From: a virus
IMG/VR virus record: IMGVR_UViG_3300047550_001870
Span: 1 to 43,521 of that record
Direction: 5' to 3' (one strand)
DNA length: 43,521 nt
In this document: positions 653 to 36,444 of the stretch, piece by piece
Layout of the letters: every line of letters starts with the position of its first letter
Position numbering within the stretch: the first letter of the stretch is position 1
Notes under the pieces: model-generated
Told to the model about the DNA's origin: nothing
Seen by the model: only the letters and a program-made list of their open reading frames with translations
Databases searched by the model: none
Made by a program: the position numbers and the translations under genes

Positions 653-662
653 GAGATAAACT

Positions 663-1397: not shown

Positions 1398-1400
1398 CAT

Positions 1401-11900: not shown

Positions 11901-14900
11901 CATGGATCTAAGTATATAGATAGTTTTAATGGAGCAAATGGACAACTAGATTCTGAAGTCTTTACTATTAATCACGAAAAAAATACTGCAACTTTAAATA
12001 AAGACGCACTCTTTAGATATGTTGAATCTGAAGTAGAATATGAAGATGCAGTTTATGATTACTTTGAAGAATTTGTAAAAAATAATGAATCATTTAATCA
12101 GAAAGCTTTTAGTACTAGATTAATAAATAGATTTAAAGTCCGAGAAATACTTCCAAACGAATCTTTGTCTCAATACTATAGAAATATAATTCCAGAAATC
12201 TTAAAAAAGTACTTACCAGAGTTTTCAAGAATATCTGATTTTGGTAATGGAAATCTAGACTGGAAATCAGCATATGATATGGGTATTGGTCTTGCTCAGA
12301 TGTTAATGGATCAAAAACCTGGATTAATCCAGATTGATAATATTTTAATTTCTGGAGACAATGTTGTAAGTACATTACTATTAAATGGAACATCTTCTGT
12401 TTACCAGGGACGAGCTAAGAATTTTATTATTCCAGATGTAAGTAGAGTACACTTTGCTTCTCCATTTGGTGTTGTAAATGAAGAAATGGCTTATGATAAC
12501 TGGAGATTATTAAATAGAGTTAAATTTATTTTGTCTAATGAAATCTCAGATGAAGAGTTTGATAATTTTACTAAATTCCATGATCCCGATGCTACAAAAG
12601 ATACTAGTATTCCAATTTCATATTTTGTAAATGCTCAAATTAATACTGTATTTCCAGACTTCCGAGATAGATCACCATACTCAAGTTTAATGACCCTTGA
12701 TGAACGTAAAATTACAGCAATGGAGTTTATGTATCAAGTTCCAAGATTATTATCTTGCTTTAACCATGATTGTGCATACTGGGGATTAAATGCTGGAGGA
12801 CGTTTCTTAAGCGATAAATTACCAACATATTATAAAGAAGATTTCTTAAGTGCAGGAGCTCCTACTGCTGCTGCTGTACTAGCAGGAGCAATTGATCAAG
12901 TAGCGTGGATGTCTGTATTTGATTTTGGAGATGAAAATGGTGAAGAACTATTAATTAATTCAATTAAAAGAGCAATTGAATTATCAAGATCAGTTAAACC
13001 AGAAGAGTTAATGAATCAAACCAATAAGTCAGACTATAGATATTCAGGTTTACATATTACTCTTGCAGCATTCCATTTCTATGCTGATGGTTCGTTTGAA
13101 AAAATGAATACTTTATTTAAAGCACTAAATTTAGGTAATCTTGAAGATGGTGTAGTTCCTGCTTCTGGATTAAAAGATCCACGATATGCAGCTATTGATG
13201 CTATGGATCAAGAATTAACTTTATTAAAAAGAGATAGAAATGCTTATAAAACTAAGTATAGACTTTCAGATTCTGAATTAATTAGTTTAGAAAATGTTGT
13301 TAAACAATTAAAAAGTAATAGAGAAAATGCTAAGGAATTTTTAAAGGGTGCTATAACTCCTAGATTTTATTCTGCTGGTTTCAAAGGAATCTTTGATGGT
13401 TTAGTAGCAAAAAATGCAGATAAAGAATTAGGTTTTTCAGTCTCTGAAATTAGAGTAGTAACAAAAGTATTACTAAGACAATTAATGCATAGTCATTTAG
13501 CTTTAATTGATAATTGTTTAGGTTTAAATCAAGATGATATTTCTGCAGTTAGAAAAATATTCTTTGAAAACTTTAAACCAGTTATAACTAAAAATAGTAT
13601 GGCAAATACTTTTAAAGAGAATTTCTTTGGAGAATTAAGTTATAAAGATCGAAGAGATCAAATGGTAGATTATTTCACTAATTATACCAATCTATTAGCT
13701 GAACAACTTGTGCCTAAACGAACAAAAGATAGAGAAAAAAAACTAGAAGAAGTAAAAGCTAAATTTTTAAAAGCTTATAAAGATAAATTAGATATTGCTG
13801 CATCACTCTTTAATAAAAAAGATATTAGTACCTTATCACAAGATGAATTACTTGATCTTCAAAATAATGTAAATCAAATTCTATCTGGTTCTCTAACATT
13901 AAAAACAAAAGAAGATGGTACTTTTGATTTAGTAAAAGGAAATAGCAATGGTTATAATCAACATTTAATTCTATGGGCATTAAATAGAAGAGCTGGTGTT
14001 CAATATAAACTATTAGATGATAATCTAGAGTTACAAAGATTAGTAACAGGAGTACATATTGATCCAAAAGATTATGAACATTATCTTGGTAGAGCAATAT
14101 TCCATACTTATGGATTAGAAATTGCATCTGGGCGTAATCATATGTTTGGTAATTGGGGTAATGGACCAGAAAGTTCTAAACTTGCCCAAGTAAGAGTAGA
14201 ACAAGGTAAGGAAGCAAATCCATTAGGAATTTGGGATGTTAGAGACATGGATGTTACTCCTGACTACTGGCATAAAGCCTTTAAACAACAAGTTTTAATA
14301 GACTTAGCTCCATACTATTTACCTCCTACTTATAATAAAGAAACAGAAAGTAGAGAAACCTACTGGAAAGAAAATGAAGCAAGATCTATTAAAGAACTAG
14401 AAGCCCAAGCCTTTGCTAATTATGTAATGGTAGTTGCTGCTAGAAATCCGAATCAAAAAATTGGAGATTTTACTGCAGCAGACCTTAAAAAGAAAATTGA
14501 AAAATACGCTGGAACTCCATCTCAAAGAATTCGTCTAAGAACATTAGTTTCATCTTTAGGCGATAAAAATAATCTAATGTCAGCAGATGCTTCTGTAGAA
14601 GGTCTTGCCAGTTATCGTCCAGCAATGGCAGACATTGATTTTTCTCAAAGAAGTACATTTGCTTTAATGGAAATGCAGCACGTTATTAGAGCTGAAGATT
14701 TAAGGGAATCACAGTTAATTAAAAAAATTGAAGAAATTAAAGAACAAGAACCTAAAGATCATAATGAAATTATCCCTATAGAACATCGTGGGCATGTTTC
14801 TATCTTTAAAAAGGAAAATCTTCCATTTATTCCACAACAAACTTCAGATACACTGAGTTCTTTAATTACTGGTCCAATAGATCCTGCTGCTCAACGAGCC

Positions 14901-17900
14901 ATTAGAATTAAAAATCAAGTAACTGGATTTGCTAAGGTATTTGGATGGGATCAATTACTTGATTCTAAAGACTGGACAAGACTATACTTATTAAATCAAC
15001 TAAGATCAAGAGCATTAATTCCTGCTTTACGAATATTCCAAGAAGGAAGTCCAAATAGTTTTGATTTAGCTATTAAGGCTAAAGCAGAGTTTTTTGATGG
15101 ATTTTTTCAAACACTGGGAACACGAACTAAAATATTCTTAAAGAATAAAAACTATAGTACTATTGACTTAATGACTAATCCAGAAGATATAGGAATTTCT
15201 TCAAGAGATATAATTGCTATGAGACTTAAATACGGAGAAGGACTTAGTTGGTTTAATGTTCTTCGTTATTTAGGTAAACGAATTGATCGTTTAGCTCCAA
15301 TTACCTTTGGTTTAGTTATGGACCCAGGAATTATTGTAAGAGGTAAAGAAGGATTAATTCAAAATCCAACAAGATCACAACCAATTAATATCTTTGGTTT
15401 AGAAGTACGACAAATATATAAATGGATTTTAGCTTCTGAAGTATTTAAAAGAACCGCAACTGAATATATATTTGATAATCATCCTAAATTATTTGATGAA
15501 TTAAAATCAAAAGGTATGGTAGATACTGCTGGATTTGTTATGTTAGAGGGTATTCCTTTAGATGAAAAAATGCAAACTGAAATTGCACAACTTGCTTTTA
15601 GAAAGACAAGAGAATTAGCTATTGAATTAAATTCTAAATTTTCTTTTGTTTTAACAAATCAACAATTGCACATGTTACATGATAAAACAAAGTCAGCATT
15701 ACGAGAAACACCAACACCACTAACAGGACCAATCGCCACTCAAGCAATAGGAGATGGATTTACAATTACTCATACTTCTGTTAATAATCCTAATACTCTT
15801 TGGGCTTTTACTGAAGACATGGTTGTTCAAATGCTTAATTCTTTAGCTAATGAATCTTTATTTAAAAATGTTGAATTAGCTTATCAAACAGGAAAAGATA
15901 TTGGAACTGTAGAAACTGATTTAGATAAATTAGTTAAAGAAGAAGAAAGACAGTTATTTGAAAGAATGTCTGCATTAGAAGAAGAAACATTTGATGCTTT
16001 AACTCTATTACATAAACTTGAATCAGATAAAGATTCTGGTAGAACTTTATTAACTGAAGATTATAGAAACTCGCAAGATGGTAAACCAAAACTAACAGTC
16101 GATATTCCATCTTATTTTACTTCTCCAATTAAACTTATTATTAATAATCAATTAGTTTATACTACTTTAGAAGAATCTGTCTTTATTACAGATATTCTTC
16201 AAGTAGCAAAAATTGCTGATAATCTAGGTATGGAAACTGAAGCTAAAGAAATTAAGAGTTTATTACTAAGAGAATTAATATCTTCTCAACAGGATATTGA
16301 ATTAGATGAAAATTCTCCATATACAATGACTTCACAAACTTTAATAAGATTAACAACAATGCTATTAAAAGCTGAAGCATCAATAGAGTCTTTAAATGGA
16401 AACAAAAGAGAAATGTTGGTTGATTTTGTTCAACCTGGATTAACTCAAGATAGTAAAAGAAAGTTATTAGAAAAAGCTACAACTTTTGTTCGATTACTAC
16501 AAAGAGTAACTAATACAAATTTAGGTGAAAATAATCAATATTACTATATGGCTTCAGCTCAGTTTGATAGAGCAGATACTATAGCTCCAAGTATTGAAAG
16601 TGATAAGAAATTTCAAGATAGTTTAATTATTAGACTTAATCGAGATATAAATAATCCCGATGAAAGACAAAAAGTAATTAAAGGAATTAAAAAAGCATAT
16701 TCAGATTTTACTACTTTACCACAAAGAATAGATATAAGTATTCCAGATGTAAACTTTAAAAAAGATATTACTCAATTTGCTGATAAAGATAAGTTTATTT
16801 TAGCTTTTGGAAATACAGGAGAGAACATTGTAAATTACTTACAGGGTTTAGTCACTCAAGGTTTAATTTCACAAAGAATCATGGATATGAAATTAATTAT
16901 GATTGGTTCTCTTGCTATGCATAATAGAGGAATTCTTGAGGATTTAAACTTTGAATCTAGAGAAGATTTAGGTCCTTCTCAATTTGCAGAAGCAGCTAAA
17001 AAGAATAATAAGTATTCAATTGGTCTAAATATACACGCAATGAAAGTAACTCCTGAAAATGAGATTTTACTAAAATTTGCAGAAGAATTAGTTCACATTG
17101 CTCGTATTAAATACATGGATGTTAACAATGCTGATTATAGATTGTTAATGGGTGCCTTTAATACTAAACGATCTGAACCAATGATTAGAGAAATGTTAAT
17201 GGCTATGAATTTAAATAAGCCATATGATCTTCTTGAACAAGATATTAAATACGCAACTAAAAATGTAGAAGAATTCTTGTCTCACTATGGAGCAATGATC
17301 CTATTGCAAGAAACTATCTATAGAAAAGATGTACTTTCTCATCTAGAAGCAAAATACGAAGATGTTAATAAGTTAAGACTATGGTGGAATAGAGCATTCT
17401 ACAATATTAAATATATTGCTAAACGAGCTCATATTAAGTTTACCCAGTTACAGAATGATCCATACTACGGTGAAGTTTACAATACAGCATATTCTGTAAT
17501 TCAAAATCTATTGTTTAATGGAACAGGTACTGGAGTAGATGTAGGAAATCCTAATATGTCATTTAATGCATTTTCTTCATTTACAACATCACAACAAACG
17601 CTTACTCCAGAACAAAAAGAAAATGTTAGACTCTTATCCGAACAATTAATAGAAATAGATAGAAAATTGGAATCAGGTAAACTTGATTCAACTACAGAAA
17701 CAACTTTAAAGTTAGAAAAAGAAGAAATTAATACAAGATTACAACAACCAACTATAAACCCAGTATCTGAACTTGGTTTAACTGAAGGTGAAATTCAAAC
17801 TGAACTGAAAAAAGTAAAAAGAGTTGATGGAAGAATTATTCAAAGATCACGACCAGACTTAACAACAAGAGCTTTATTTGCTGAAGGTTTAAATAACTGG

Positions 17901-20900
17901 AATATGGCAAGGGGTCGTCGTGTTGATAATTCTGATACTTTAGCAGGTATGCTAAGAATTATTCCAGATGAAAGTGATAAATTAACTAGATTATTACAAA
18001 ATTATTTCTTCCAAGGATATAATCAAACAAACCTTACTTACAATAGTCCTATGGCTTTAGTTGTAATGTTATCAGATTTAATTGATAACTGGACTGTAAC
18101 AACTCAAAGCACCTATTTACCATCTTCCACAAGTGGTGGATTCATGGCTAATAAACTTGCTTTAGATGGTTATATGGGTAATTTAAGACATCATACAAGT
18201 ATTGTAGGAAGAACGTTTACAAACTTAGATGTCCGAGAAAGAATTAATCTTAATGTAATTCGTAGATTAAATGGTCAACCTATAACTGTTTCTGATCCAA
18301 TTGAAATAGCCGCAGTTGATAATATTACTAAAGCATACCAACTATGGCATACTAGATTAACAGAAGAAATGGTTAACTCTAGAATTAAAAAACCAGGATC
18401 TATTCAATATTTAGATAAGATTGGACTAAAACTAAAAGATTCTAGATTACTAAGTAAAGAAGAAAGAGCTAATGGATTTAATGCGATTAGAAATCTTATT
18501 AGAAATAAAGCTTTAAAAAGATTAGATGAACATACAAGAAATGCAGTATTTAGTCCATATGTTGCTTTCTTAGGTGGATTAATGATGGACCCAAATGTTT
18601 CATTTGTAGAACAACCAGATTTCCAAGTAACATTTGAAAAATTCCTTATTATGGCAGATGGCAAACCAGCTCAAGCTATAAATGGAAAAGAAGTAATAAT
18701 GAAACAAATTGTTGAGGAAGCTATTGAAAAATATGCCATTGCAAATAGTATTTCTATAAGTGCAGCAAGATCACAATTACAAAATGCTAATCCAGCATTT
18801 CAAGATATTGTTAAAGATACACTAGTAAGTTTTATTTATAAAACAAGAGAACATCAAGAAATCTTTTCTGAGTTATTTACTAAAGTATCAAATGATGAAT
18901 TAGACTTATTATTAAAAGATTATAGATCTATATTAGCAAACAATGCTGCCAGTGAATTAACTGGACAAAGATTCAAAGCATTATTAAATTCTGATTTTGG
19001 TTTTTATATGGGAGAAACCCAATACTCAGCAGATTATAAACCACAAAATACTCCACTAGATGCTCTTGTTTATGAATTCCTTGGTAAACTTGGAGCAACA
19101 GCTTATATATTTGATACTAGAAGTCCAATGTTAACAAGTGAAGATATTTTCTTAGAAAATGATCCAAAAGTTAAAGATGACTTAGATGTTGCTAGAGCAA
19201 TGTTTGATGGAGATATTGACAGTATTGGATTAAGTTTACTAAGAGGTGTTGGATATGATACTGTTCAAAGATTAATAGCTGAACAAGTATTTGGAATTCA
19301 AGGATTTAATTTTACTTTTCAACAAATCATTAGTATGCTTAGAGGGGTAATCCAAAATGTAGATCCTTCTAACAAAATCTGGAAAACAGCAAACCTTGAT
19401 GGTAGAGTTAAAACTGAAGATATTCAGTCTATGTTACTTGCTAGTTTAGATAGACTTGAGACTGCTAATAAAGATGCTAGAGGTACACTTGGAAATAGAA
19501 GTTCTTATAATCCAGTTATGGATACTTTATTACGAGGTGGTAGAGCTATAACACAATTAACCTTTGGACCTAATATTCCACTTGCAACTTGGGCGGTAGA
19601 AGGAACAATGGGAGCTATAGGTGGTGCTCTTAGAGGTAATAATCCACTAACATTCTTAGTAGATGCAATTGATCAAAATGTAGGATCATTTGTTATAAAC
19701 AATGTAGGTGATCTTGTTAGAGTACGAAATGGAAAAGTAGGTATGTTTAATGTTGATCCACCAGTACTAAGAAATATTGCTCAAAATTGTTTATGGTTAT
19801 TTGAAGAAATGTACAGTCCTATGTTACCAGGAAAACTAACTGCAGATGGATTTAGTTCTGAAATGATCGATAGAATGAGTGGTTGGGAAAGATTCCTTGC
19901 ATTCAGCAATAGATCTAACTCAGCATCCATGAAAGCAATTAGAGTTGCTTCTGAGAATCAAGCCAATAGAAGAATTGCTAAAGATATTCAAAATAGAAAT
20001 TTATATAGATTACGAGATTCAGTTAATAAAATTCTAAGAAATAATCCTAATCCTAGTAATAAAGTATTACGAGAAGTTATTAAAGATTCAGGAGTTAGTT
20101 ACAATATTGAGGTTCTACTTGCTTTTGTTAGAGCTGGTTTATTTGAAACAATTGAAACTAAACTTCCAGGTGGAAAATCCATATCAAGTGGTGTATTAGA
20201 AACAATTGAATATTTAATGTCAAAGAATAAACTAGATAGAGGGACAATTCCTATGTTGGCTTTCTTTGATTTAGAATATGATTTAAAGACTGCTAGAAGT
20301 GATACATTTGGAACTACTATAATTACTTCTGGTTCTGTACAAGCAGCTAGAACAGCAATGATGAAAGCAATGAAATCATATGCAAATATGGCAATGGTTG
20401 TAAATCATCCTTTAGATGGAACTGCAAGTGCAACTGCTCACCATGCTGTCTTAAACTTCTATAAATCCTATCCTGGATTGTATACAGCCCAATTCCTAAT
20501 GCGAAGAGGATCTGTAACCCCAGCAATGCAATTTGCATTTGAACTTGTACTCTACAGTCTTGCTGATATGTCATATAATATTCTACTATCTCTAGCAAGT
20601 GGATACTATAACTACGAGAAATTAAAGAAAGCTTTACAACAAAGAGATTTTAATTATAGAGAATTTGTACGATTAATTATGAAATATCCTCTCTTTAGTA
20701 ATAATCTATTTGGCTTTGGTTCACAAGCTATTGCTCAAGTCCTAACTACAGGTAAAGGAGAACAATTAGTATCTTCTGTAGCTGAAAGTGCAATTGGATA
20801 TGATATTAGAAATATTGTTAAAGCAATACAAGGATTTGCTGCTTGGTCTATGGGAGATGTTCCAAGACAAAGTCCACTGATTAATACATATAATGTATTT

Positions 20901-21341
20901 GGTCGAGTAATTCCAGTATTAAGTAGTACTTTAGTAAAAATGTTATTAATGCAATCATTTGGAGATCTTAACTATAGTGGTAGAAGACCAGGTAAACGAA
21001 CCAAGAGTAGTTATGTACTAGATAAAGTACATGCAGTATCTGATGATTTTATCAGAGAAAAATCTATTCGTAATCTATTTAATAATAATAATTATAATCC
21101 AGGCGATAAACGAGATATTATTAATGGTGGATATCTAAAAAAACCTGAATTACAACCTTGGTTACAAGATGCTGTAAATAGTGCTCAACAAAGATTTAAA
21201 GAAAAGAAACAACAGCAACAAACACAAACACAGCCTCAAGTACAACAACCACAGCAACCACCTGAACCACAGTCACCACCTAAGGTAAGTTTACAAACTA
21301 TTGGAACAACTCCAATACAACCTCCAAGTGGTATACTGTAA
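8910..21341 (+). CDS. Giant (4143-residue) virion protein with a DEDDy exonuclease-like domain
   Basis: The start has an AGGAG ribosome site 7 bp upstream. Residues about 130-370 are a charged coiled coil. Residues 620-850 carry the three exonuclease motifs: FDIETD (D628, E630), NGNSFDFF (D713) and YAQND (Y837, D841). This is the DEDDy arrangement of 3'-5' exonucleases and polymerase proofreading domains. Near residue 2725, LLKFAEELVHIARIK resembles a zinc-peptidase helix whose first His is Glu. The last 1000 residues contain hydrophobic segments, and the final 60 are Gln/Pro-rich. Position and bulk match gp16-like ejection proteins, but it is about three times T7 gp16 length. I found no single-subunit RNA polymerase motifs of the N4 virion polymerase type. 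Confidence 0.6.
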   Translation: MSCDINTINNIRESLLAQGYPLEEVEAAIELIKLRNSENSSIVDSMLESETKTRPILSNTERKELRGIFTTLTDRIDKVYGGIENFTESFDKAIESLLPIEDKTKLYDYLKRLKLGRGDLTPAGTDYISAIESEIKIQEAIGNQAFANELKQDLIKEKERIKKYTDANKKIQTARDKLLTKIQNLRKMAQLASALAEGSLSDIETEIANKISDGRRKVQEKNMELSSLEVRLDSLKQELKKYPKTGTLSKYVKEKRTDITKRITETKESIKKAKEGIKEAQSNLDAIIQEYVQKDVITKDGKLKDISPTLKKFLTKLQKEEKSTQEKLNKLGYKEFIGATRKVQQGLKQKLAKESKALREIRTGYKQRLGFLETYITEKKKSLPDGVDIAPLIDINFMVMMVGPSAVQYYLHNIRPKLDKPGVDGSDIDMSPLKPGEAIKILKTWRGRMTNSINNGFYSSDLSVLNDENLTYLQAIANNTTIIDLSNPNLFDMVIAPDMLPEQALSLQTLGTIPTENRAQTAAQLAGWIESTRNTLLSLKTAEGFTGTIPESLLRMALHQKLYDIASTAFTTALRQKAKRRNIQSGNFDELIGIKGLLETVGISNVNSLPEFKDPNWNNNFEQLVGFDIETDDTTVNEIRSIQLEVYENGKRVKYVYVNSNDSGEETLINSINTPTRNRIPLNKNQIETILTQLEDLQNKGFKVITFNGNSFDFFNLHNFIDDKNLLMRVSLRSIDLLRNLGFDNRTDTGEYSRIAPGGAKLKDLAQKNLPDAMVSAYGGKVRFRNGVVQYISKPAYTDEFGVEHPDTIEELKGGSDIKQYWKDGLDTGDWTKFDAYAQNDSMLTIDLARLFGTQDSTNVSLEYKPKEKGILAYSITTFKPRSNLFLSSSPNSDGQVTFSHIVDKLVSNNPELEEKAILLNFTYELEYDLNKVLDILDDWLIKAWALDPSNKPKLNLLLDGLQKEKLNSNLTNDLVIKIAKENRAVLKALLKKKFADHGSKYIDSFNGANGQLDSEVFTINHEKNTATLNKDALFRYVESEVEYEDAVYDYFEEFVKNNESFNQKAFSTRLINRFKVREILPNESLSQYYRNIIPEILKKYLPEFSRISDFGNGNLDWKSAYDMGIGLAQMLMDQKPGLIQIDNILISGDNVVSTLLLNGTSSVYQGRAKNFIIPDVSRVHFASPFGVVNEEMAYDNWRLLNRVKFILSNEISDEEFDNFTKFHDPDATKDTSIPISYFVNAQINTVFPDFRDRSPYSSLMTLDERKITAMEFMYQVPRLLSCFNHDCAYWGLNAGGRFLSDKLPTYYKEDFLSAGAPTAAAVLAGAIDQVAWMSVFDFGDENGEELLINSIKRAIELSRSVKPEELMNQTNKSDYRYSGLHITLAAFHFYADGSFEKMNTLFKALNLGNLEDGVVPASGLKDPRYAAIDAMDQELTLLKRDRNAYKTKYRLSDSELISLENVVKQLKSNRENAKEFLKGAITPRFYSAGFKGIFDGLVAKNADKELGFSVSEIRVVTKVLLRQLMHSHLALIDNCLGLNQDDISAVRKIFFENFKPVITKNSMANTFKENFFGELSYKDRRDQMVDYFTNYTNLLAEQLVPKRTKDREKKLEEVKAKFLKAYKDKLDIAASLFNKKDISTLSQDELLDLQNNVNQILSGSLTLKTKEDGTFDLVKGNSNGYNQHLILWALNRRAGVQYKLLDDNLELQRLVTGVHIDPKDYEHYLGRAIFHTYGLEIASGRNHMFGNWGNGPESSKLAQVRVEQGKEANPLGIWDVRDMDVTPDYWHKAFKQQVLIDLAPYYLPPTYNKETESRETYWKENEARSIKELEAQAFANYVMVVAARNPNQKIGDFTAADLKKKIEKYAGTPSQRIRLRTLVSSLGDKNNLMSADASVEGLASYRPAMADIDFSQRSTFALMEMQHVIRAEDLRESQLIKKIEEIKEQEPKDHNEIIPIEHRGHVSIFKKENLPFIPQQTSDTLSSLITGPIDPAAQRAIRIKNQVTGFAKVFGWDQLLDSKDWTRLYLLNQLRSRALIPALRIFQEGSPNSFDLAIKAKAEFFDGFFQTLGTRTKIFLKNKNYSTIDLMTNPEDIGISSRDIIAMRLKYGEGLSWFNVLRYLGKRIDRLAPITFGLVMDPGIIVRGKEGLIQNPTRSQPINIFGLEVRQIYKWILASEVFKRTATEYIFDNHPKLFDELKSKGMVDTAGFVMLEGIPLDEKMQTEIAQLAFRKTRELAIELNSKFSFVLTNQQLHMLHDKTKSALRETPTPLTGPIATQAIGDGFTITHTSVNNPNTLWAFTEDMVVQMLNSLANESLFKNVELAYQTGKDIGTVETDLDKLVKEEERQLFERMSALEEETFDALTLLHKLESDKDSGRTLLTEDYRNSQDGKPKLTVDIPSYFTSPIKLIINNQLVYTTLEESVFITDILQVAKIADNLGMETEAKEIKSLLLRELISSQQDIELDENSPYTMTSQTLIRLTTMLLKAEASIESLNGNKREMLVDFVQPGLTQDSKRKLLEKATTFVRLLQRVTNTNLGENNQYYYMASAQFDRADTIAPSIESDKKFQDSLIIRLNRDINNPDERQKVIKGIKKAYSDFTTLPQRIDISIPDVNFKKDITQFADKDKFILAFGNTGENIVNYLQGLVTQGLISQRIMDMKLIMIGSLAMHNRGILEDLNFESREDLGPSQFAEAAKKNNKYSIGLNIHAMKVTPENEILLKFAEELVHIARIKYMDVNNADYRLLMGAFNTKRSEPMIREMLMAMNLNKPYDLLEQDIKYATKNVEEFLSHYGAMILLQETIYRKDVLSHLEAKYEDVNKLRLWWNRAFYNIKYIAKRAHIKFTQLQNDPYYGEVYNTAYSVIQNLLFNGTGTGVDVGNPNMSFNAFSSFTTSQQTLTPEQKENVRLLSEQLIEIDRKLESGKLDSTTETTLKLEKEEINTRLQQPTINPVSELGLTEGEIQTELKKVKRVDGRIIQRSRPDLTTRALFAEGLNNWNMARGRRVDNSDTLAGMLRIIPDESDKLTRLLQNYFFQGYNQTNLTYNSPMALVVMLSDLIDNWTVTTQSTYLPSSTSGGFMANKLALDGYMGNLRHHTSIVGRTFTNLDVRERINLNVIRRLNGQPITVSDPIEIAAVDNITKAYQLWHTRLTEEMVNSRIKKPGSIQYLDKIGLKLKDSRLLSKEERANGFNAIRNLIRNKALKRLDEHTRNAVFSPYVAFLGGLMMDPNVSFVEQPDFQVTFEKFLIMADGKPAQAINGKEVIMKQIVEEAIEKYAIANSISISAARSQLQNANPAFQDIVKDTLVSFIYKTREHQEIFSELFTKVSNDELDLLLKDYRSILANNAASELTGQRFKALLNSDFGFYMGETQYSADYKPQNTPLDALVYEFLGKLGATAYIFDTRSPMLTSEDIFLENDPKVKDDLDVARAMFDGDIDSIGLSLLRGVGYDTVQRLIAEQVFGIQGFNFTFQQIISMLRGVIQNVDPSNKIWKTANLDGRVKTEDIQSMLLASLDRLETANKDARGTLGNRSSYNPVMDTLLRGGRAITQLTFGPNIPLATWAVEGTMGAIGGALRGNNPLTFLVDAIDQNVGSFVINNVGDLVRVRNGKVGMFNVDPPVLRNIAQNCLWLFEEMYSPMLPGKLTADGFSSEMIDRMSGWERFLAFSNRSNSASMKAIRVASENQANRRIAKDIQNRNLYRLRDSVNKILRNNPNPSNKVLREVIKDSGVSYNIEVLLAFVRAGLFETIETKLPGGKSISSGVLETIEYLMSKNKLDRGTIPMLAFFDLEYDLKTARSDTFGTTIITSGSVQAARTAMMKAMKSYANMAMVVNHPLDGTASATAHHAVLNFYKSYPGLYTAQFLMRRGSVTPAMQFAFELVLYSLADMSYNILLSLASGYYNYEKLKKALQQRDFNYREFVRLIMKYPLFSNNLFGFGSQAIAQVLTTGKGEQLVSSVAESAIGYDIRNIVKAIQGFAAWSMGDVPRQSPLINTYNVFGRVIPVLSSTLVKMLLMQSFGDLNYSGRRPGKRTKSSYVLDKVHAVSDDFIREKSIRNLFNNNNYNPGDKRDIINGGYLKKPELQPWLQDAVNSAQQRFKEKKQQQQTQTQPQVQQPQQPPEPQSPPKVSLQTIGTTPIQPPSGIL

Positions 21342-21427: not shown

Positions 21428-21449
21428 GCTACATGCGTAGCGGATTAGG
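21428..21449 (+). repeat. 22-bp hairpin repeat, copy 1
   Basis: GCTAC-ATGC-GTAGC is a perfect 5-bp hairpin followed by GGATTAGG. The same element recurs at 25930-25951 with only the two bases TG in the loop changed to GC (20 of 22 identical). This copy lies 86 bp after the giant gene, in a gap that also holds other GC-rich hairpins, and 40 bp before the first cassette gene. Confidence 0.75.
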
Positions 21450-22839: not shown

Positions 22840-22882
22840 ACCGTCAGGTAGGGGCATAGTCCCCAGATTGGACAGGTTCCAC

Positions 22883-24640
22883 ATGAACCTCTCTCCGCTT
22901 TCGTCGTTCGTCAACCCGATTCTCAACCGCATCCAGAACTCGATCCGCATCCACATGGCGATCAACATCGCCACACGGATTGCGGACAACCCCACCCACG
23001 GTAAGGAAATTGTCCAGTACCTCATCGATGAAGGCGCGTTGGAGGTCCGCAAGATCCACGACGAGTCTACGGGAGAAGATATCGTCTTCGTCGGCAAGCC
23101 CAAGTCGGAGTACCACATCCTCCGCGAAGTGCCAAGGTGGCAGCCTGATGCAATGCTGACCGAGAACCAGTGCAAGGTTCTCAACTACCTTCAGGATGCT
23201 ACCTTCAGCATCAACATGAAGGTCTACGAATTTGTCCAGAAGCACCGCGATCACTGGCAGTGGAAGATGGGCGACCGTACCATGGATAAGATTGCCTCTA
23301 CCATGAAGGCAATTCAGGAGTATCTTGTCAAGTATCCTGATGGCATCTTCAAGCAGAAGTATGCCACGCCAGATGGACGGCGTTACTATGCTCTGATGAA
23401 TCCTCTGACCCATCAAGGTGGGGATGTGCCTCGTGGTTTGACCCAGTGGGGAAAGAAGTACAAAGTCAAGTCCCGTGCTGCAATTCACAAGATTGCGGAA
23501 ATCCTGAAAGATGAATACGGGGTTGGGATTGACAACTACAAGTTTGTGGTTGCCAATCCCGAACTGGCCTTTGGGACTGAGTATGGCTTGAAGGGCAAGA
23601 AGCCAGCGTGTACATACGCTGCTGCATTGTGCATTGCCGAACTCATGGAGACTGGGGAATCGGCATTTATTGTCCAACAGGATCAGACTTGTTCTGGCTT
23701 CCAACATTGGGGTATGGAACTTGGTTGTCACAACCTTTCCCTGTTGACCAATCTTATTGGCGGTGCCAAGAAAGATCTCTACACCACAGCAGCTGAGATG
23801 GCTCAGTTGTTTGTCTCTGGGGACTATGCCTACTTCTTTGATAGAAAGTCTGGCAAGTTCTTTGTCATGAGAATTGGGTATGGTGCAGCTGCGGCATCCC
23901 TTGCCCGTGGCTTGATCCTGGATAAGCCTCAGGATGATGAGTACAAGTATCTCAATGAGGATGGGGTCTACATCCCCAACTCACTTGAGAGTCTGGCTAA
24001 GAACCGCTTTAATGAGGACAACTATGATTACTTTGTCAAGTGTGGTTGGCCTGAGGCGGTAAATCAGAGTCAGGTCATCTCCAAGGCTTATTACAACGGT
24101 CTGATGAAACTGTCGCCTATGCTTCAATCTGCCCTGCGGATGTGCAAGGAAGCTAACCGTGCTGCTTTGGCTAAGGGTGAATTCATGTATTGGGTCCTGC
24201 CCAATGGGGATGTCAAGAAGAATGTGGCTTGGAAGCCTAACCCTGAGGCTAAGCGAGTTCGTATTTCCATGCGTGACCAGAAGGATGTAAAGTTTCAGTT
24301 CTCCTTCATGCCCATGGAGCGCATGGCTAATGACTCTGCCGTGGCTCCTATCTTTATCCACGGTGCAGACGGCGTGACAATGGGACAGATTGTCATTGAC
24401 TCGCATGAGAACTTCTTTGAACCTATTGCTCCAATCCATGACTCTACGGGTACTACCGTGTCTCACTTTGATGAGATTGGTCCTATGTGGATTGATATCT
24501 GCACCAAGTTCTGGCTGAATCGGGAAGAGTCTATGTTCTTTGAAACCATGCGTAGGTATGGAATTGTCATTCCCAAGAAGGTCTGGCCTAAGGGCTGGAT
24601 TCCCATCGACATTTCTAAAGCCCAGTACCATCTGGGTTAA
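22883..24640 (+). CDS. Compact single-subunit (T7-family) DNA-dependent RNA polymerase
   Basis: The ATG at 22883 gives 585 residues; a TTG 15 bp upstream is the alternative. All core motifs are present. DGRRY (164-168) corresponds to the T7 DxRGR loop. QQDQTCSGFQHWG is motif A with D267. K325 to Y333 (GKFFVMRIGYG) is motif B with Lys and Tyr conserved. PIHDSTGT is motif C with D520. Length and spacing correspond to the polymerase domain alone, so the roughly 300-residue N-terminal promoter-binding domain of T7 RNAP is missing. The A-to-B interval is short (58 residues against about 94 in T7). It ends AQYHLG instead of the T7-like FAFA foot. A second, full-length polymerase is encoded at 31291. 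Confidence 0.85.
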   Translation: MNLSPLSSFVNPILNRIQNSIRIHMAINIATRIADNPTHGKEIVQYLIDEGALEVRKIHDESTGEDIVFVGKPKSEYHILREVPRWQPDAMLTENQCKVLNYLQDATFSINMKVYEFVQKHRDHWQWKMGDRTMDKIASTMKAIQEYLVKYPDGIFKQKYATPDGRRYYALMNPLTHQGGDVPRGLTQWGKKYKVKSRAAIHKIAEILKDEYGVGIDNYKFVVANPELAFGTEYGLKGKKPACTYAAALCIAELMETGESAFIVQQDQTCSGFQHWGMELGCHNLSLLTNLIGGAKKDLYTTAAEMAQLFVSGDYAYFFDRKSGKFFVMRIGYGAAAASLARGLILDKPQDDEYKYLNEDGVYIPNSLESLAKNRFNEDNYDYFVKCGWPEAVNQSQVISKAYYNGLMKLSPMLQSALRMCKEANRAALAKGEFMYWVLPNGDVKKNVAWKPNPEAKRVRISMRDQKDVKFQFSFMPMERMANDSAVAPIFIHGADGVTMGQIVIDSHENFFEPIAPIHDSTGTTVSHFDEIGPMWIDICTKFWLNREESMFFETMRRYGIVIPKKVWPKGWIPIDISKAQYHLG

Positions 24641-24668: not shown

Positions 24669-25133
24669 ATGTTTCTTATCCGCATTGTCAGCAAGTCGAA
24701 CGCTCGTCGCAAGTACACTCTGGTTGCCCGCCACATGGCGGGAGCGGCCACTGGCTCTGTCCAGTTGGTAAAGCAGTTCAGCACCGAGGTGATGTTGGAC
24801 TTTCCCAACACACAGGATCTAAACAAGTTCCTAAAAGGAGGAAACGATCAATGGTCCATTGAGGCCATTGACCGTCCCAAAACCTATTTCACCCAAGGGG
24901 TGATTCAGGTCTGGGATGGAAATCAGTTCTTCTGTCAGGCCACCATCTGGCCTGAAGGGGACGAAACTTCAAAGACCACCATCGTGGGTCCCAAGAAGGA
25001 CTCTGCCGAGGACGCTAGGAAGGCGTTCTGGTTCTTCTGGAATCACGGAAACCACAAACATAAGACGGAGGAGGGCAATTCTGCCCGCCTCATTAGGTAC
25101 AAGACTGGCTATCAGGAGGTGATTGTCTCATAA
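24669..25133 (+). CDS. Hypothetical protein next to the compact RNA polymerase
   Basis: The ATG at 24669 follows a near-perfect ribosome site (AAGGAGGATCATCC), 28 bp after the polymerase stop. The 154-residue product is soluble-looking, rich in Trp/Phe (QATIWPEG, KAFWFFWNHGNHKHK) and basic near the middle. I recognise no family. Tight spacing and shared GC-rich codon use suggest co-expression with the polymerase, so a transcription-linked role is possible but unproven. Confidence 0.75.
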   Translation: MFLIRIVSKSNARRKYTLVARHMAGAATGSVQLVKQFSTEVMLDFPNTQDLNKFLKGGNDQWSIEAIDRPKTYFTQGVIQVWDGNQFFCQATIWPEGDETSKTTIVGPKKDSAEDARKAFWFFWNHGNHKHKTEEGNSARLIRYKTGYQEVIVS

Positions 25134-25282
25134 AAGGGTATATAGAAAACATCTACCCCTTAGGTAAACCCTCAGGTTCGCCCTACGCTTCGCGTGGCCA
25201 TTCCCCTTGGGGACTCCTAGTTGCCCCATTCTGGGGTTGTACAGTGGCCCCTTGCGGGGTGGATGATTTACTATCATCAGTG

Positions 25283-25374
25283 GAATCGTCCCTGAGGGCC
25301 CTAGAATCGTCCCTAAGGCATTCTTTACCCCTAGGGGTACCCAGATACCCTTAGGATTGGAACGTCCCTAATGG
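25283..25374 (+). repeat. Iteron-like GAATCGTCCCT repeats
   Basis: GAATCGTCCCTGAGG (25283-25297) and GAATCGTCCCTAAGG (25304-25318) differ at one base and are 21 bp apart, two helical turns. A diverged third copy, GAACGTCCCTAATGG, is at 25360-25374. The spacing suits side-by-side protein binding (operator, promoter or replication iteron). Confidence 0.6.
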
Positions 25375-25400
25375 GTTTATACGCCGTTTTACGAAAAAAA

Positions 25401-25430
25401 TGCAATACCCGTTGGGTACCCTGCTTTTTT
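25401..25430 (+). terminator. Intrinsic terminator
   Basis: TGC and TACCC pair with GGGTA and GCA across a GTT loop, with a small internal loop (A opposite CCC). The stem is followed by TTTTTT. An A7 tract (25394-25400) precedes it, so it may work in both directions. It would end transcription of the compact polymerase operon. Confidence 0.65.
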
Positions 25431-25607
25431 CCCTTAGGAACCATACCCCGCGAGTACCACGCCAAGCGAAGCCCCGTGCAGACTCGCTAACTCGCTGCAC
25501 TACGCGGAAGATCGTGTGTTGATCACACATGGTCAATCCTGACATCAATTGTGATGTTGATTTGGCCGCGTGTGCCACAATCACCAGCACATTACATGGA
25601 GGATACC

Positions 25608-25811
25608 ATGAACGGTATCACTGTTGAGGAGGGCGTGAATGCCCTGCATCTGATGGGAATCAAGATCAATGTCCGTACTGGTCTTGCTCCCAGGTCGGAA
25701 GCTGTCCTGAAGGGGATCATCATGAACCCTTCGTGCAAGCCCCACACCCGCGAGCAGGCTTTGCTTGAGCTCCAGCAGCTCAAGAACCCGCCCGTTGAGC
25801 AGACGGCCTAA
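25608..25811 (+). CDS. Small hypothetical protein
   Basis: The ATG at 25608 has a TGGAGGAT ribosome site 5 bp upstream. The 67-residue product (MNGITVEEGVNALHLMGIKI, then HTREQALLELQQLKNPP) is predicted helical, with no cysteine cluster or membrane segment. It stands alone between two structured non-coding stretches. Function not recognised. Confidence 0.65.
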   Translation: MNGITVEEGVNALHLMGIKINVRTGLAPRSEAVLKGIIMNPSCKPHTREQALLELQQLKNPPVEQTA

Positions 25812-26714
25812 CTAATTCCGCCAGCCCCGAGAGGCGGTTAATAAATATCTCTTGGCAAGACTCGACTATGCGAGTATAAATAGAAGTTAAGCATAGTGCG
25901 TCCCCGTAGCAATACGGGGGGTCCCGATTGCTACAGCCGTAGCGGATTAGGAAATGAAACACCCTAATCTTGTCTAGTTTCAACGGTCAAGGGCTAACTC
26001 GTATGGAATACCTAAACCCACATTCCATACCTGGCAGGGTAAATAGGGTTACATGGGACCTATTGGTAGAAATACCATTAGGTCTTTTCCAAAGGGTTTC
26101 CCTGATCAGGAAACTCTGGGTGGCGGAATAACGGTTTAATCTAGCCGTAACGCATACCAATGCAAACCAATGGCCAAATGGTTGAGGAATGCAAAGGTAG
26201 TACAAAGTAGGCTATCCACCTTGATAGATTGCTGAAACGTTGGAGGTATCAAGTAATCCTCCCCCCACAATACAAACCTCGCCTAACGGGGGCGTGTAAT
26301 AAATACCCCAGCCCTTAGGGGCATCGCGGCATCTACGGTAGAAATACCGTGGAAGCCTTTCACCGCAAGCAACCTAGCCTGTAGGCGGTATATAAATAGC
26401 AGGACACACTTTATGTGTAGACCTGAGCAAGTCTCAAAAAGGCTCATAGACTTCCCGCACCCATCCTCCCGATCTGGAGGAAGTTAGGGGTGTATCGGAC
26501 TCTGCTAACGCTTAGTTAGTAGATACGCCGTTGATCACGGTTCACCTAGGTTCTGCACCTAGGGGTGCTATTTCCCCGAGTGCAGCGGGGCCTCAATGGA
26601 TTGCTGGGCGTCCATTGTTGCTTAAATGCCCACCGTGTTACTCCGAGCGGGCAATTCGGAGTTCCTTATAAGATATGTTCTCTCGTTGAGAACCTATCTT
26701 TACAGGAGATTACT
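25812..26714 (+). ncRNA. Candidate large structured RNA (about 0.9 kb of consecutive stem-loops)
   Basis: No supported ORF spans this stretch, yet it reads almost entirely as local inverted repeats on the + strand. Clear stems: CCGCC/GGCGG (25818), ACTCG/CGAGT (25860), a 12-bp stem around GGGT (25906-25934), GTATGGAAT/ATTCCATAC (26001-26030), a GAAA-capped helix (26057-26084), CTTGATA/TATCAAG (26220-26253), CTACGGTA-GAAA-TACCGTGG (26333-26352), ACACA/TGTGT (26404), CCTCC/GGAGG (26465), CCCCG/CGGGG (26574), AATGGA/TCCATT (26595), CTCCGA/TCGGAG (26641) and GTTCTC/GAGAAC (26677). Size and phage/tRNA context recall ornate RNAs such as GOLLD and ROOL. I cannot match it to either, and a very long structured leader is the alternative. 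Confidence 0.45.
25930..25951 (+). repeat. 22-bp hairpin repeat, copy 2
   Basis: GCTAC-AGCC-GTAGC followed by GGATTAGG matches the copy at 21428 at 20 of 22 positions. Here GCTAC (25930) can pair instead with GTAGC at 25906 in a 12-bp hairpin. GATTAGG can pair with CCTAATC just downstream. The element therefore sits in mutually exclusive folds. Confidence 0.75.
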
Positions 26715-26837
26715 ATGGATGAGTGCATTTGTGCACATTGTTCAAAGGTATATTACAATACACCTTTGAATTATTCCTGGTATTTATGTCCAACTTGTAT
26801 GGACATATGGTTTTTGTTTGGTTGTCCAGTGGAATAA
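26715..26837 (+). CDS. 40-residue zinc-ribbon-like protein
   Basis: The ATG at 26715 follows CAGGAG by 6 bp. The product has CICAHC near the N-terminus and CPTC about 20 residues later, i.e. two CxxC knuckles typical of a minimal zinc ribbon. Aromatic residues lie between and after them (NYSWYL, IWFLFGC). It is the first gene after the structured region and opens a run of tightly packed small genes. Such mini-ribbons often bind nucleic acid or protein partners; the target is unknown. Confidence 0.65.
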   Translation: MDECICAHCSKVYYNTPLNYSWYLCPTCMDIWFLFGCPVE

Positions 26838-26848
26838 AAGGAGATATA

Positions 26849-26992
26849 ATGTCTAAGCCGCGTCAGGTCAAGAAGCGTAAGCGTAAGACTGGATACATCA
26901 ATCTGGTCAAGCCTTCTCCGTTCCGTCACACTTTCTTTTCGTTTAGTGATTTCAACAATTGGCTGAATAGCCCAGCCTCAACTGAGTGGTGA
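26849..26992 (+). CDS. Small basic protein
   Basis: A strong ribosome site (AAGGAGATAT) precedes the ATG at 26849, 11 bp after the upstream stop. The 47-residue product starts with a highly basic stretch (KPRQVKKRKRKTG) and ends in an aromatic region (RHTFFSFSDFNNWL). This suits nucleic-acid binding. No family recognised. Confidence 0.6.
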   Translation: MSKPRQVKKRKRKTGYINLVKPSPFRHTFFSFSDFNNWLNSPASTEW

Positions 26993-26997
26993 TTACA

Positions 26998-27228
26998 ATG
27001 AGTACTGAAAACGGTATTAGGATTGCATTGTGGGAAGTCAACTCTGACAACCCCAACAGCCCCAAGTTCAATGGTATTGTTACCATTAATGGAACCGAGC
27101 ACAAGGTTTCCCTATGGGACAATAGCGCAGCTACCCACCCCAAGGCTCCCCGCCTCAAGGGTAAGACGAGCCGCCCTTCCCCTAAGGAAGATGTCTCAAA
27201 GAACAGTGAACTTGTGATTCCTTTCTAA
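26998..27228 (+). CDS. DUF736-like small protein with an SSB-like tail
   Basis: The 76-residue product (ALWEVNSDNPNSPKFNGIV, then EHKVSLWDN) follows a pattern common in small phage and plasmid proteins. In these a short beta-rich domain contains 'LW' and 'VSLW.N' motifs. It ends in VIPF, reminiscent of the DIPF tips of single-stranded DNA-binding proteins. The domain assignment is by eye. The ATG at 26998 lies 5 bp after the preceding TGA. Confidence 0.6.
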   Translation: MSTENGIRIALWEVNSDNPNSPKFNGIVTINGTEHKVSLWDNSAATHPKAPRLKGKTSRPSPKEDVSKNSELVIPF

Positions 27229-27238
27229 ATACCCAATA

Positions 27239-27299
27239 CCCTAGTATATAGCTAGGGCTCAAACCTAAGGTATTAATAATATATAGTATTATTATACCT
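27239..27299 (+). promoter_or_regulatory. Paired hairpins ahead of the small-gene cluster
   Basis: CCCTAG-7-CTAGGG (27239-27257) is followed by a long AT-rich stem. In it AGGTA and AATAATA pair with TATTATT and TACCT around TATAG (27268-27299). CCTAAG occurs three times nearby. Composition becomes AT-richer from here on. Could be an mRNA boundary or a regulatory site. Confidence 0.4.
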
Positions 27300-27317
27300 A
27301 AGTATTAAACCTAAGTT

Positions 27318-27536
27318 ATGAAACTAATTAATAATAAAAACTATGGTAAAACTCTATGGTCTATTGATTCTGAGTATTACATTTGCTCTACTTCCTTAGA
27401 CAATTCTGAGGTAATGGTGTTTCAATCAGATTCTAATGGAAATATTGTAGATTATACAGACTTGTATGTTTCATACACACAGGTTGATAACCATGCTTAC
27501 CACATGGAACAATTTAGGAGTCAACGTGGGTCTTGA
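27318..27536 (+). CDS. Hypothetical protein
   Basis: The 72-residue product (MKLINNKNYGKTLWSIDSEY) starts at the ATG after the hairpin pair. It looks like a small beta-rich soluble protein. Its last codons overlap the next gene, whose ribosome site lies inside this frame. Function unknown. Confidence 0.65.
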   Translation: MKLINNKNYGKTLWSIDSEYYICSTSLDNSEVMVFQSDSNGNIVDYTDLYVSYTQVDNHAYHMEQFRSQRGS

Positions 27537-31290: not shown

Positions 31291-33726
31291 ATGCTAGAAA
31301 CATGGCGTAAACTAAGTAAAGAAGAACAAACTCGTCGTACCAATATGCAAAAGGTTTACGAAGAAGAGTTGTTAGAGAATGGTGTAGAAAAGTATTGGCG
31401 TGAGTATGGTCGTGCTCCAGATGAAGGTAAGCCAGAACAGTTGCTACTTGAGTCTGCTGTAATCCATCTTACTCCATATTATCAGAAATGGATTGATGAG
31501 TGCTGTAATAATCGTAAGTCACCTGATTGGTTGGCACCTCTACTTAGTATTGGTGCAGCTAAGATGGCGGACATTACACTTAGGTCTATGATGAGGTTGT
31601 TCCTAACTAGGAATACAATCCAAAACTTTGATGAGACTATAGGCATTCCTGCTAATGCTCCTGTTGCTCAGCAAGTAGCCAAGCTTATTGCAGATGATGT
31701 TGTTGCTATTGTTGCATATCAACAAGCAAAGAAACGATTCTCAGAAGATTGGCGTAAACAATCAAAGTTTATTAAGAACTGGACTGTTAAAAGATGCAAA
31801 GCATTTACCACTAAGGTATCCCAAATTCCAAAGCTAAAGTCTAAGGAAAAGGAAGATCTAGGCCATAACATGCTACGCATTGCTTTGCTATCTGATATTC
31901 TAGTTAGCAGAGTACATTGGAATGGTAAGAACAAAAAGTCATTGCTGGTTTCATTCTCTCCTTGGATTCTTTCAGAAATTCAAAAGAGACATGAACTTCT
32001 TGAGACTGCTTGTCTTGTCTATCGTCCTATGATCTGTCCACCTATTCCCCATACAACTGCAGAAGATGGTGGATTCCTAAGTCCTTGGGTTCGCAAGAAG
32101 ATGATCAAAAGATATCATCCTGTTGGTGCTAATCCAAAGGATTGGGATTCTCGTCCATCTGAAATGGTTCTCAAAGGACTCAATGCTTTGATGAATACTG
32201 AGTGGTCTATTAACACTCAAGTATATCAAGTAATGAAGACCATGTTTGAGAACGATTATCGTACTGCTAATCTTCCAGCATATACCTTTAGGGATTTTGC
32301 ATTTAGTCGTCCCTATCCAGAAGATGGAACTAAGGAACAACAAGCCAAATGGATGCAAGAATCTAATGAAGCTTGGGGTGAGTGGTATAAGGAAGAACAA
32401 GCACGGTCAAGGATGATTGTCCGACTTGAACTTGCCAAGAAGATGAACCAATGGGGATTCTTCTACATGCCATACACTCTTGACTTCAGGGGTCGTGCAT
32501 ATTCAGTTTGTGAGTTGTTATCGCCTCAAGGTATTGACTTTGATCGTGGTCTTGTACAGTTTGCCATGCCACGCAAGCAAACCAAGGAAGGTTTGTACTG
32601 GTTGTATGTTCACCTTGCCAATCTATTTGATCAAGATAAGAAACCCTTTGATGATCGGGTACGATGGGTCAAGGAAAACATGCCAATGCTGCAAAGAATT
32701 GCCGAAGATCCATATGTAAACAAGGAATGGATTGATCCAAATAAAAAGAAGAACAAGTCTTTCCAACGACTGGCTGCTATCTTTGAAGTATGCAGAACAG
32801 ATGGAATGACTCAGCTTCCTGTTCAAATGGATGGTGCAAATAATGGTGGCCAACACTGGGCTGCTATTATGCGTAACCATAAGCTTGCTGTATTGACTAA
32901 TCTAATCAAGACAGATAAGCCACAAGATCTATATCAACATGTTGCGGATGCTGCTACTGAATTTATGCTACAGCATTCAGAAAACAAATGGTATCCTGCT
33001 TTCCTAGAATATTGGGAAGGTAAGCTTCCTCGTAGTGTTACTAAACGATCAACAATGTGCGATGCATACGGTCTTACCTTCTATGGTATGCAAAAGTATG
33101 TAAAGCAGGAAGGACATGTAGACTGGGTTAGTAAGGAACAAAGAGGTGGAGCCGTAGTTGAACTAGCACGGGCTGTACAAGCTGGTCTAGGAGAAACTAT
33201 GGAATCACCTAATCGTGGTAAGGAATGGTTGCGTGAGGTAGCTGATATCCTTAATGCTATGAACAAACCTTTTGTTTGGACTACACCTAGTGGTTTTGAA
33301 GTACATCATGTATATAATCAAGTACTTGAAAGAGTTAGTTATGCTGAGCTATTTAATCGCCAGCAACTTGTGTTCTCTACTGTTACAGAAGATCTTGATG
33401 GTAAAGCACAGTATCTTGCGATTTCTCCAAACTACATCCATTCACTAGATGCAGCACATATGTTTATGTCCATCAGTGAAATGCTGGATGAAGGTATGAC
33501 TGCATATTCATTTGTGCATGATTCATATGGTACTTATGCACCTGATGTTCCAAAGATGCATAAGATATTGCGAGAAGAATTTATTAAAATCCATCAGGAG
33601 AATCAACTTGAAAAACTCAAGAAAGAAATCGAAGAACGATATGGAATCTATCTCCCCGAAGTACCCAAAAGGGAAGACGGTTTCCAAATCGAAGAAGTCA
33701 TTGAATCAGAATACTTCTTCGCTTAA
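31291..33726 (+). CDS. Full-length T7-family single-subunit RNA polymerase
   Basis: A strong ribosome site (AAGGAGATAT) precedes the ATG. The 811 residues include DFRGRAYSV (D398), motif A QMDGANNGGQHW (D514), motif B KRSTMCDAYG (K585, Y593) and motif C VHDSYGT (D744). It ends in YFFA, like the T7 FAFA foot. The first 390 residues correspond to the N-terminal domain that binds promoters in T7. A hairpin TGTAGC-TAT-GCTACA lies in the leader (about 31251-31265). It probably transcribes the phage's own middle/late genes. It is clearly distinct from the 585-residue polymerase at 22883. Confidence 0.95.
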   Translation: MLETWRKLSKEEQTRRTNMQKVYEEELLENGVEKYWREYGRAPDEGKPEQLLLESAVIHLTPYYQKWIDECCNNRKSPDWLAPLLSIGAAKMADITLRSMMRLFLTRNTIQNFDETIGIPANAPVAQQVAKLIADDVVAIVAYQQAKKRFSEDWRKQSKFIKNWTVKRCKAFTTKVSQIPKLKSKEKEDLGHNMLRIALLSDILVSRVHWNGKNKKSLLVSFSPWILSEIQKRHELLETACLVYRPMICPPIPHTTAEDGGFLSPWVRKKMIKRYHPVGANPKDWDSRPSEMVLKGLNALMNTEWSINTQVYQVMKTMFENDYRTANLPAYTFRDFAFSRPYPEDGTKEQQAKWMQESNEAWGEWYKEEQARSRMIVRLELAKKMNQWGFFYMPYTLDFRGRAYSVCELLSPQGIDFDRGLVQFAMPRKQTKEGLYWLYVHLANLFDQDKKPFDDRVRWVKENMPMLQRIAEDPYVNKEWIDPNKKKNKSFQRLAAIFEVCRTDGMTQLPVQMDGANNGGQHWAAIMRNHKLAVLTNLIKTDKPQDLYQHVADAATEFMLQHSENKWYPAFLEYWEGKLPRSVTKRSTMCDAYGLTFYGMQKYVKQEGHVDWVSKEQRGGAVVELARAVQAGLGETMESPNRGKEWLREVADILNAMNKPFVWTTPSGFEVHHVYNQVLERVSYAELFNRQQLVFSTVTEDLDGKAQYLAISPNYIHSLDAAHMFMSISEMLDEGMTAYSFVHDSYGTYAPDVPKMHKILREEFIKIHQENQLEKLKKEIEERYGIYLPEVPKREDGFQIEEVIESEYFFA

Positions 33727-36350: not shown

Positions 36351-36440
36351 GCTATTGGCTGGTGTCAACTATGCCTAGCACATTCGCAGATGTGTTAATA
36401 AAATGGTGGCATGGTGGGGGTTCGATTCCCCCAGATAGCT
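36351..36440 (+). tRNA. tRNA-like element, atypical, anticodon undetermined
   Basis: The T arm is canonical (GGGGG-TTCGATT-CCCCC). GCTATTG at the 5' end pairs with AGATAGC at the 3' end, with one mismatch. The middle does not fold as a normal cloverleaf. GCACA/TGTGT encloses an 8-base loop TTCGCAGA, and ATG-GTGG-CAT could be a long variable arm. Alternatively ATGCC (36371) pairs with GGCAT (36408) and displaces it. It may be a decayed class II tRNA. Confidence 0.5.
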
Positions 36441-36444
36441 ACAT

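Follow-up and report, generated by a model that had tools for sequence, protein, structure and literature searches.

What does a phage hold in almost a kilobase of sequence in which no gene can be recognised? The question is raised by positions 25812-26714 of a virus record of 43,521 nucleotides (IMG/VR IMGVR_UViG_3300047550_001870), the whole of which is here called the window. This 43.5-kb record codes for a T7/N4-type RNA polymerase (31291-33726), thymidylate synthase, primase/helicase and DNA polymerase; it also has a second polymerase-like ORF (22868-24640) and, at 36-40 kb, four tRNAs. Among viral contigs the RNA polymerase has 28 relatives that are close (74-91% identity) and more distant ones reaching down to 47% identity, and no relative above 60% identity was found among phage isolates. 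A single ORF of 4143 aa occupies 8910-21341 of the fragment, and a tRNA-looking element (36353-36441; acceptor AGCTATT/AGATAGCT, T-arm GGGGGTTCGATTCCCCC) with odd D and anticodon arms, for which ARAGORN made no call, lies directly 5' of tRNA-Ile. When the intergenic regions of the window were searched for a repeated promoter of the phage RNA polymerase, none was clear; a 14-nt exact repeat, CGTAGCGGATTAGG, occurs in two of them (21436-21449 and 25938-25951), and its second copy overlaps the 5' strand of a hairpin of module A, described below.

A structured non-coding interval

The interval 25812-26714 is a real structured non-coding RNA, on the plus strand. Each plus-strand frame contains 14-22 stop codons, with a longest open run of 56-67 codons, and perfect stems (loop 3-12) of 5, 6 and 7 bp number 21, 11 and 6, far above the 6.8, 1.9 and 0.5 of 300 first-order Markov shuffles, which bears out an earlier note that had read dense stems and no supported ORF from the letters of the plus strand. 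The minimum free energy was computed as -328.4 kcal/mol (z = -5.6; none of 20 shuffles as low). Since the minus strand folds nearly as well (z = -5.5), folding alone does not give the strand, and the plus strand was assigned because it carries the Pistol and manA matches as well as the covariation. Alignments of the interval with relatives contain indels of 1, 2, 4 and 5 nt, sizes that one expects of an RNA but not of a coding region, and compensatory changes, which the earlier note had named beforehand as the check to be made on homologues, are abundant. The two GAAA tetraloops that it had pointed out are both present (26069-26072 and 26341-26344), each capping a hairpin with a short run of U behind it. 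Intrinsic termination was considered for these hairpins and rejected, as a terminator scan flagged neither and the U tails are too short for confidence. Two known RNA classes had been overlooked in that reading, a Pistol self-cleaving ribozyme and a manA-like RNA (Table 1).

Table 1. Features in and around the structured interval (window coordinates)
Feature	Position	Strand	Details
Small upstream CDS, 67 aa from ATG	25608..25811	+	ORF 25551-25811
Module B, copy 1	25818..25851	+	Direct-repeat family D2, motif list; pseudoknot CCGCC (25818-22) with GGCGG (25833-37); stem GAGA/UCUC around GGCGG-UUAAUAAAUA
Pistol self-cleaving ribozyme	25860..25926	+	Rfam RF02679, 58.6 bits vs gathering 34.5
Module A core, outer stem	25937-40/25983-86	+	Core spans 25937..26050
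Module A hairpins	25945-51/25963-69 and 26001-09/26022-30	+	
Module A PK1	25955-60/25977-82	+	
Module A PK2	26015-19/26046-50	+	
GAAA-capped hairpin with UUUU tail, closing module A	26057..26088	+	Inverted repeat I6
Diverged manA RNA (RF01745)	26096..26272	+	38.8 bits, E 6.3e-8
Module B, copy 2, diverged	26280..26309	+	Repeat family D2; stem GGGG/CCCC around GCGUGUAAUAAAUA
Second GAAA-capped hairpin, short U tail	26328..26360	+	Inverted repeat I5, 13-bp arms
Module B, copy 3	26362..26403	+	Pseudoknot 26362-66/26385-89; stem 26378-82/26399-403; loop AUAUAAAUA
Module C, H-type pseudoknot	26420..26446	+	S1 GAC/GUC 26420-22/26431-33; S2 UGAGC/GCUCA 26424-28/26442-46; 19 lineage copies covary
Module D, two hairpins	26543..26590	+	26543-50/26558-67 and 26574-78/26586-90
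Hairpin CUCCGA/UCGGAG	26641..26661	+	GACCGA/UCGGUC in L050 and L059
Module E, hairpin with 20-nt arms	26663..26707	+	Inverted repeat I1
First downstream ORF, 40 aa, two CxxC motifs	26715..26837	+	

Pistol, module A and a manA-like RNA

The Pistol ribozyme starts 48 nt downstream of the stop codon of the small upstream gene, which has a related gene at the same place in L111. It passes the gathering score of its family with a full-length model match and retains P1, the pseudoknot sequence and most of the conserved nucleotides; we take the cut to fall between G25921 and U25922, from the cleavage site known for Pistol. The P2 stem next to the cut site has one of its four model pairs in the window, the other three being non-standard, and is nearly absent in the closest relatives as well, with pairing varying up to four out of four (L055, by eye). 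With P2 nearly absent, cutting could be slow, regulated or lost, and judged from the sequence this lost pairing is the main doubt about the activity of the window Pistol. Pistol was found in 13 of the 18 related records and thus in all 13 relatives whose contigs cover the place, the remaining five going without because their contigs, as inferred from the position of the polymerase gene, stop short of it. It is also present in L104, L111 and the distant relatives L108 and L109 (~50% polymerase identity), in the latter two at a few kb 5' of the gene for the polymerase. Right after these two Pistols there is a putative tRNA-like element (approximately 781-900 of L108 and 190-315 of L109, reverse strand) with a permuted order, the T-arm preceding the D-arm, a closed acceptor stem, and compensatory changes between the two in the T-stem. 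In other phages Pistol often stands directly after a stop codon. The record L045 has four Pistols within about 1.5 kb (520-2051, minus strand), and a stop codon immediately precedes the one that was read out. What comes after the Pistol of L046 looks like a compact, structured RNA with a terminator-like end, and in the cultivated Cellulosimicrobium phage DS1 (MW590223) the match starts at the end of a gene, with module C contained in the gap of ~550 nt to the next annotated gene. When phage isolates were searched by BLAST with the region or with manA, the sole match, if any, was the Pistol of DS1.

Behind Pistol lies module A (25937-26088, plus strand), a domain with two pseudoknots which was found 3' of Pistol in 12 sequences (11 aligned ones and L111). 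Seven diverged sequences keep the order of its elements, i.e. two hairpins, two loop-to-tail pseudoknots and a final hairpin, with the stems largely rewritten: PK2 is AACCC/GGGUU in the window vs AGGUC/GACCU in L065, and the closing GAAA hairpin has six distinct strand pairs among seven relatives. The elements were read off by eye, so that paired percentages in this module hold by construction, and the evidence for it is that the order recurs and that the stems have been rewritten. What lies 3' of Pistol in the L053-L055 group could not be matched to module A.

The manA-like RNA aligns non-truncated to the full model (1-192) and shares the core GTAGTACAAAGTAGG...GAAACGTTGGAGGTATNNAGTAATCC with the clear manA RNAs of L017, L024 and L038, its score being below the gathering value of RF01745 (38.8 vs 55.2 bits). 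At the limit of the search, manA was detected in the window only and in none of the 18 related records; L079/L110 have a weak counterpart, which lies in an intergenic region of L079. The manA RNAs of L017 and L024 are located between promoter- and terminator-like sequences (by eye), and in cyanophage S-CREM1 (L297, OP535465) wcaG, manA and abiF RNAs are interleaved with tRNAs at 446-1344, with manA placed directly between tRNA-Leu and tRNA-Asn, beside the wcaG and abiF RNAs. As tRNA genes abut the S-CREM1 manA on both sides, this argues for a free-standing RNA and suggests that manA, which has been listed among the candidate cis-regulatory RNAs (Weinberg et al. 2010, PMC2864571), may be such an RNA rather than a riboswitch.

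Further modules and the distribution of module C

Downstream of module A the interval consists of short hairpins and pseudoknots. The third copy of module B was found in nine sequences with its stem 100% paired and three pairs changed on both sides, and stem covariation was 0.344 vs 0.150 after shuffling (0 of 500 shuffles as high). A pattern search for module B recovered 11 contigs, namely nine relatives that were already known, L099 and L104, and gave no match in bacterial genomes. The two loops of module D can pair with each other (CUGCA 26553-57 with UGCAG 26581-85), and L051 and L074/L077 have the same loops on different stems. In the hairpin at 26641-26661 the compensatory change is directly visible in the sequences, and module E, whose hairpin pairs the Shine-Dalgarno sequence (AGGAG, 26704-08) of the ORF behind it, is conserved in L050, L051, L059 and L074, where its stems have changed. 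The ORFs that follow module E differ among L050, L051, L059 and L074/L077, and are not the same gene as the first downstream ORF of the window. The small genes after the island span 26715-27228, and 3' of them is a palindromic AT-rich element (TACCCTAGTATATAGCTAGGG..., 27229-27317) that is conserved in many relatives. Judging from the alignments, compensatory changes support modules A-E, joined by shuffle tests for B and C. None of these modules matched a family in Rfam 15 at E <= 5, a search with limited sensitivity for short pseudoknots as Rfam models encode no pseudoknots.

A comparison of the relatives shows blocks that are shared, missing or moved. Through the gain and loss of modules, the distance from Pistol to the next conserved CDS ranges between about 480 and about 1800 nt; module B directly follows module A in L050/L059, and L067 has modules B and C 5' of its Pistol. 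By these comparisons only Pistol, and nearly always module A, is constant between relatives, and the interval is a mosaic of separable modules rather than one monolithic RNA of the GOLLD/ROOL type.

Module C is present in one to five copies per locus in many relatives of the window. Among 19 lineage copies there were 28 doubly changed cells vs 8.8 after shuffling (0 of 500 as high), and partners slid out of register gave nothing comparable; the copies were picked by the conserved core letters (CUGRGCA/AAACUGCYCA), which take in stem-2 positions, and the pairs of stem 1 (S1) are therefore the truly free ones. The pattern CCTGRGCANGTNN{1,7}AAACTGCYCA was found in at least 120 viral contigs and in 55 bacterial or archaeal genome contigs, and in no viral contig once its 3' part had been scrambled. 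For the 119 viral matches listed, the outer S1 pair is complementary in all (GC 65, CG 38, AT 12, TA 3, GU-type 1), as is the middle S1 pair, and the R-Y pair is so in 118. Both S1 positions pair in 47 of the 61 genome matches, and those without both pairs are probably due to chance. Of the viral matches listed, 112/119 lie outside ORFs of more than 100 aa, and 101/119 have the end of an ORF within 80 nt upstream, most often at 6-7 nt (median stop distance 19 nt), with the next start commonly 19-35 nt beyond the module. The proteins encoded upstream (viral and genome matches listed, pooled) number 143 in 84 families, the largest of which is Hsp20-like by reading of the sequence. Read-through of the stop codon via module C was also considered, and rejected as open extensions past the stop are mostly short.

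A sequence search with module C gave 208 phage isolate records, at a permissive E-value and with chance matches included, and in the isolates inspected the module lies between genes. It is located between the head morphogenesis and scaffold genes of Staphylococcus phage 80, downstream of the ribonucleotide reductase gene in both Roseophage SIO1 and Celeribacter phage P12053L, before the scaffold gene of Lactobacillus phage phiEF-1.1, and in an intergenic region of the crAss-like cr7_1. Erwinia phage Berlingot (L294) has 1.5 kb without annotated genes (909-2429), which holds a module C. In the Ignavibacteria genome CP054675.1 (L278, L287; CRISPR arrays of 98 and 41 repeats) four CRISPR spacers are module C pseudoknots in one orientation, as expected if the phages of this organism carry the module. 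In the tested loci, no Rfam family matched at module C. The abiF RNA (RF03085) was rejected as its identity, since neither the window nor DS1 matches it at E <= 10; a search of 16 records with RF03085 gave two matches, both below the cut-off. We found no described phage pseudoknot like module C in the open-access literature, an absence that is provisional. The pseudoknot in the mRNA of phage T4 gene 32 is also of the H-type with a short loop 1, the same shape as module C. Such H-type pseudoknots are known from phage mRNAs, that of T4 gene 32 being the leader element of one gene (PMC3014915), whereas module C recurs between unrelated genes. We lean, at somewhat better than even odds, towards module C being an undescribed, widespread class of intercistronic pseudoknots of tailed phages with many hosts, which would shape polycistronic mRNA through decay, processing or translation at gene borders, and towards the island being a lineage-specific assembly of module C and other new pseudoknots behind Pistol.

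Possible roles of the island and comparison with known systems

The reading that we favour, with a probability of roughly 0.6, is that of a ribozyme-headed island of separable non-coding RNA modules in a polycistronic phage transcript. The island would be co-transcribed with the small upstream gene, and most likely, as far as can be judged from its sequence, Pistol cuts this transcript and frees stable RNA modules. The cut, predicted from the Rfam-level match at about G25921/U25922, would part the upstream mRNA from the downstream RNA and give the latter a defined 5'-OH end. The freed RNA would fold into compact pseudoknotted units (A, the manA-like RNA, B, C and D), structures based on covariation, for which we infer a resistance to decay, and the GAAA hairpins with their U tails may end or bound single units. 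These units could act as RNAs in their own right, possibly in trans, and as processing or insulating elements, and may be exchanged as cassettes between phages, with module E hiding the ribosome-binding site of whichever small gene follows. Module C would be a general-purpose element, which other phages employ by itself in the gaps between genes, mostly at a distance of a few to tens of nt from the preceding stop codon. The Pistols of L045, L046 and DS1 and the S-CREM1 array together suggest phage RNA arrays with ribozymes or tRNAs as cut points.

Exchange of cassettes would also fit an arms race, in which the modules serve as decoys or antitoxin mimics occupying host RNA-targeting toxins, nucleases or CRISPR effectors, and Pistol only releases them. 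H-type pseudoknots serve as antitoxins in type III toxin-antitoxin systems (PMC8860590, PMC5772629), the S-CREM1 array that contains manA also has abiF RNA, the antitoxin RNA of AbiF (PMC12373285), and module C is present in the four Ignavibacteria spacers. However, module C matches neither abiF nor any Rfam family and, in many phages, occurs as a single copy between genes for structural and metabolic proteins, thus looking like an mRNA element and not like a decoy, and we consider an anti-defence array rather unlikely.

The very long leader put forward in the earlier note is possible at the 3' end only, where module E, conserved with changed stems, masks the Shine-Dalgarno sequence. A cis-acting RNA that senses a signal and controls translation of the 26715-27228 genes via this hairpin would agree with the classification of manA as a cis-regulatory candidate (PMC2864571), but the gene 3' of module E differs between relatives, modules A and manA end about 440-630 nt 5' of the downstream gene, Pistol would remove the 5' end, and the tRNA-flanked manA of S-CREM1 is no leader. 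Given that relatives gain, lose and rearrange modules and do not conserve the downstream gene, a leader dedicated to one gene is unlikely.

A new RNA class had been considered as well, which stands as far as a structured non-coding RNA is concerned, the single large ornate RNA having given way to a mosaic of modules. Size class, pseudoknots, the pairable loops of module D and phage origin could all point to one GOLLD/ROOL analogue of a new class, assembled into a particle by loop-loop contacts. Nevertheless, close relatives, which share constantly only Pistol and nearly always module A, differ several-fold in length and module order, and the Rfam search of 25000-27400 gave no GOLLD or ROOL match at E <= 5, making a monolithic RNA very improbable. 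The remark on nearby tRNA genes holds only loosely, the four tRNAs being 10-14 kb from the interval. Chance inverted repeats or decayed genes, with which the equally good folding of the minus strand would agree, are already refuted by covariation; a stem density far above shuffles, the Rfam matches and conservation in 13 relatives also speak against them.

Read as a ribozyme-headed island, this one phage locus brings together a ribozyme, an RNA of the orphan manA family and a minimum of three unlisted pseudoknots, of which module C is common to phages of Staphylococcus, Lactobacillus, Roseobacter and Rhizobium and to the crAss-like group. Its Pistol agrees with the class, for which a phage context has been described, in that context and in the full-length match above gathering, but heads a conserved non-coding RNA island instead of standing alone, and has almost lost P2 (Harris et al. 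2015, PMC4604425). The manA-like RNA has the core sequence, the terminal hairpin and a significant E-value in common with manA, and differs from it by a score below gathering, a shortened middle, and a position framed by other RNA modules and adjoining no coding gene (PMC2864571). Like GOLLD and ROOL the island is large, pseudoknot-rich, of similar size and from a phage; unlike these it is modular and of unstable length, without a model match, and its tRNA genes are 10 kb off (PMC12286853). The theta (HDV-like) ribozymes of gut phages are likewise small phage ribozymes processing structured RNA, although they are a different ribozyme and cut at the 3' ends of tRNAs, whereas that of the window is at the head of a non-coding RNA island (PMC10879173). 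Finally, the cyanophage array of S-CREM1 also has manA beside other structured RNAs, but interleaves them with tRNAs and includes wcaG and abiF, where the window has Pistol and new pseudoknots (PMC9964418).
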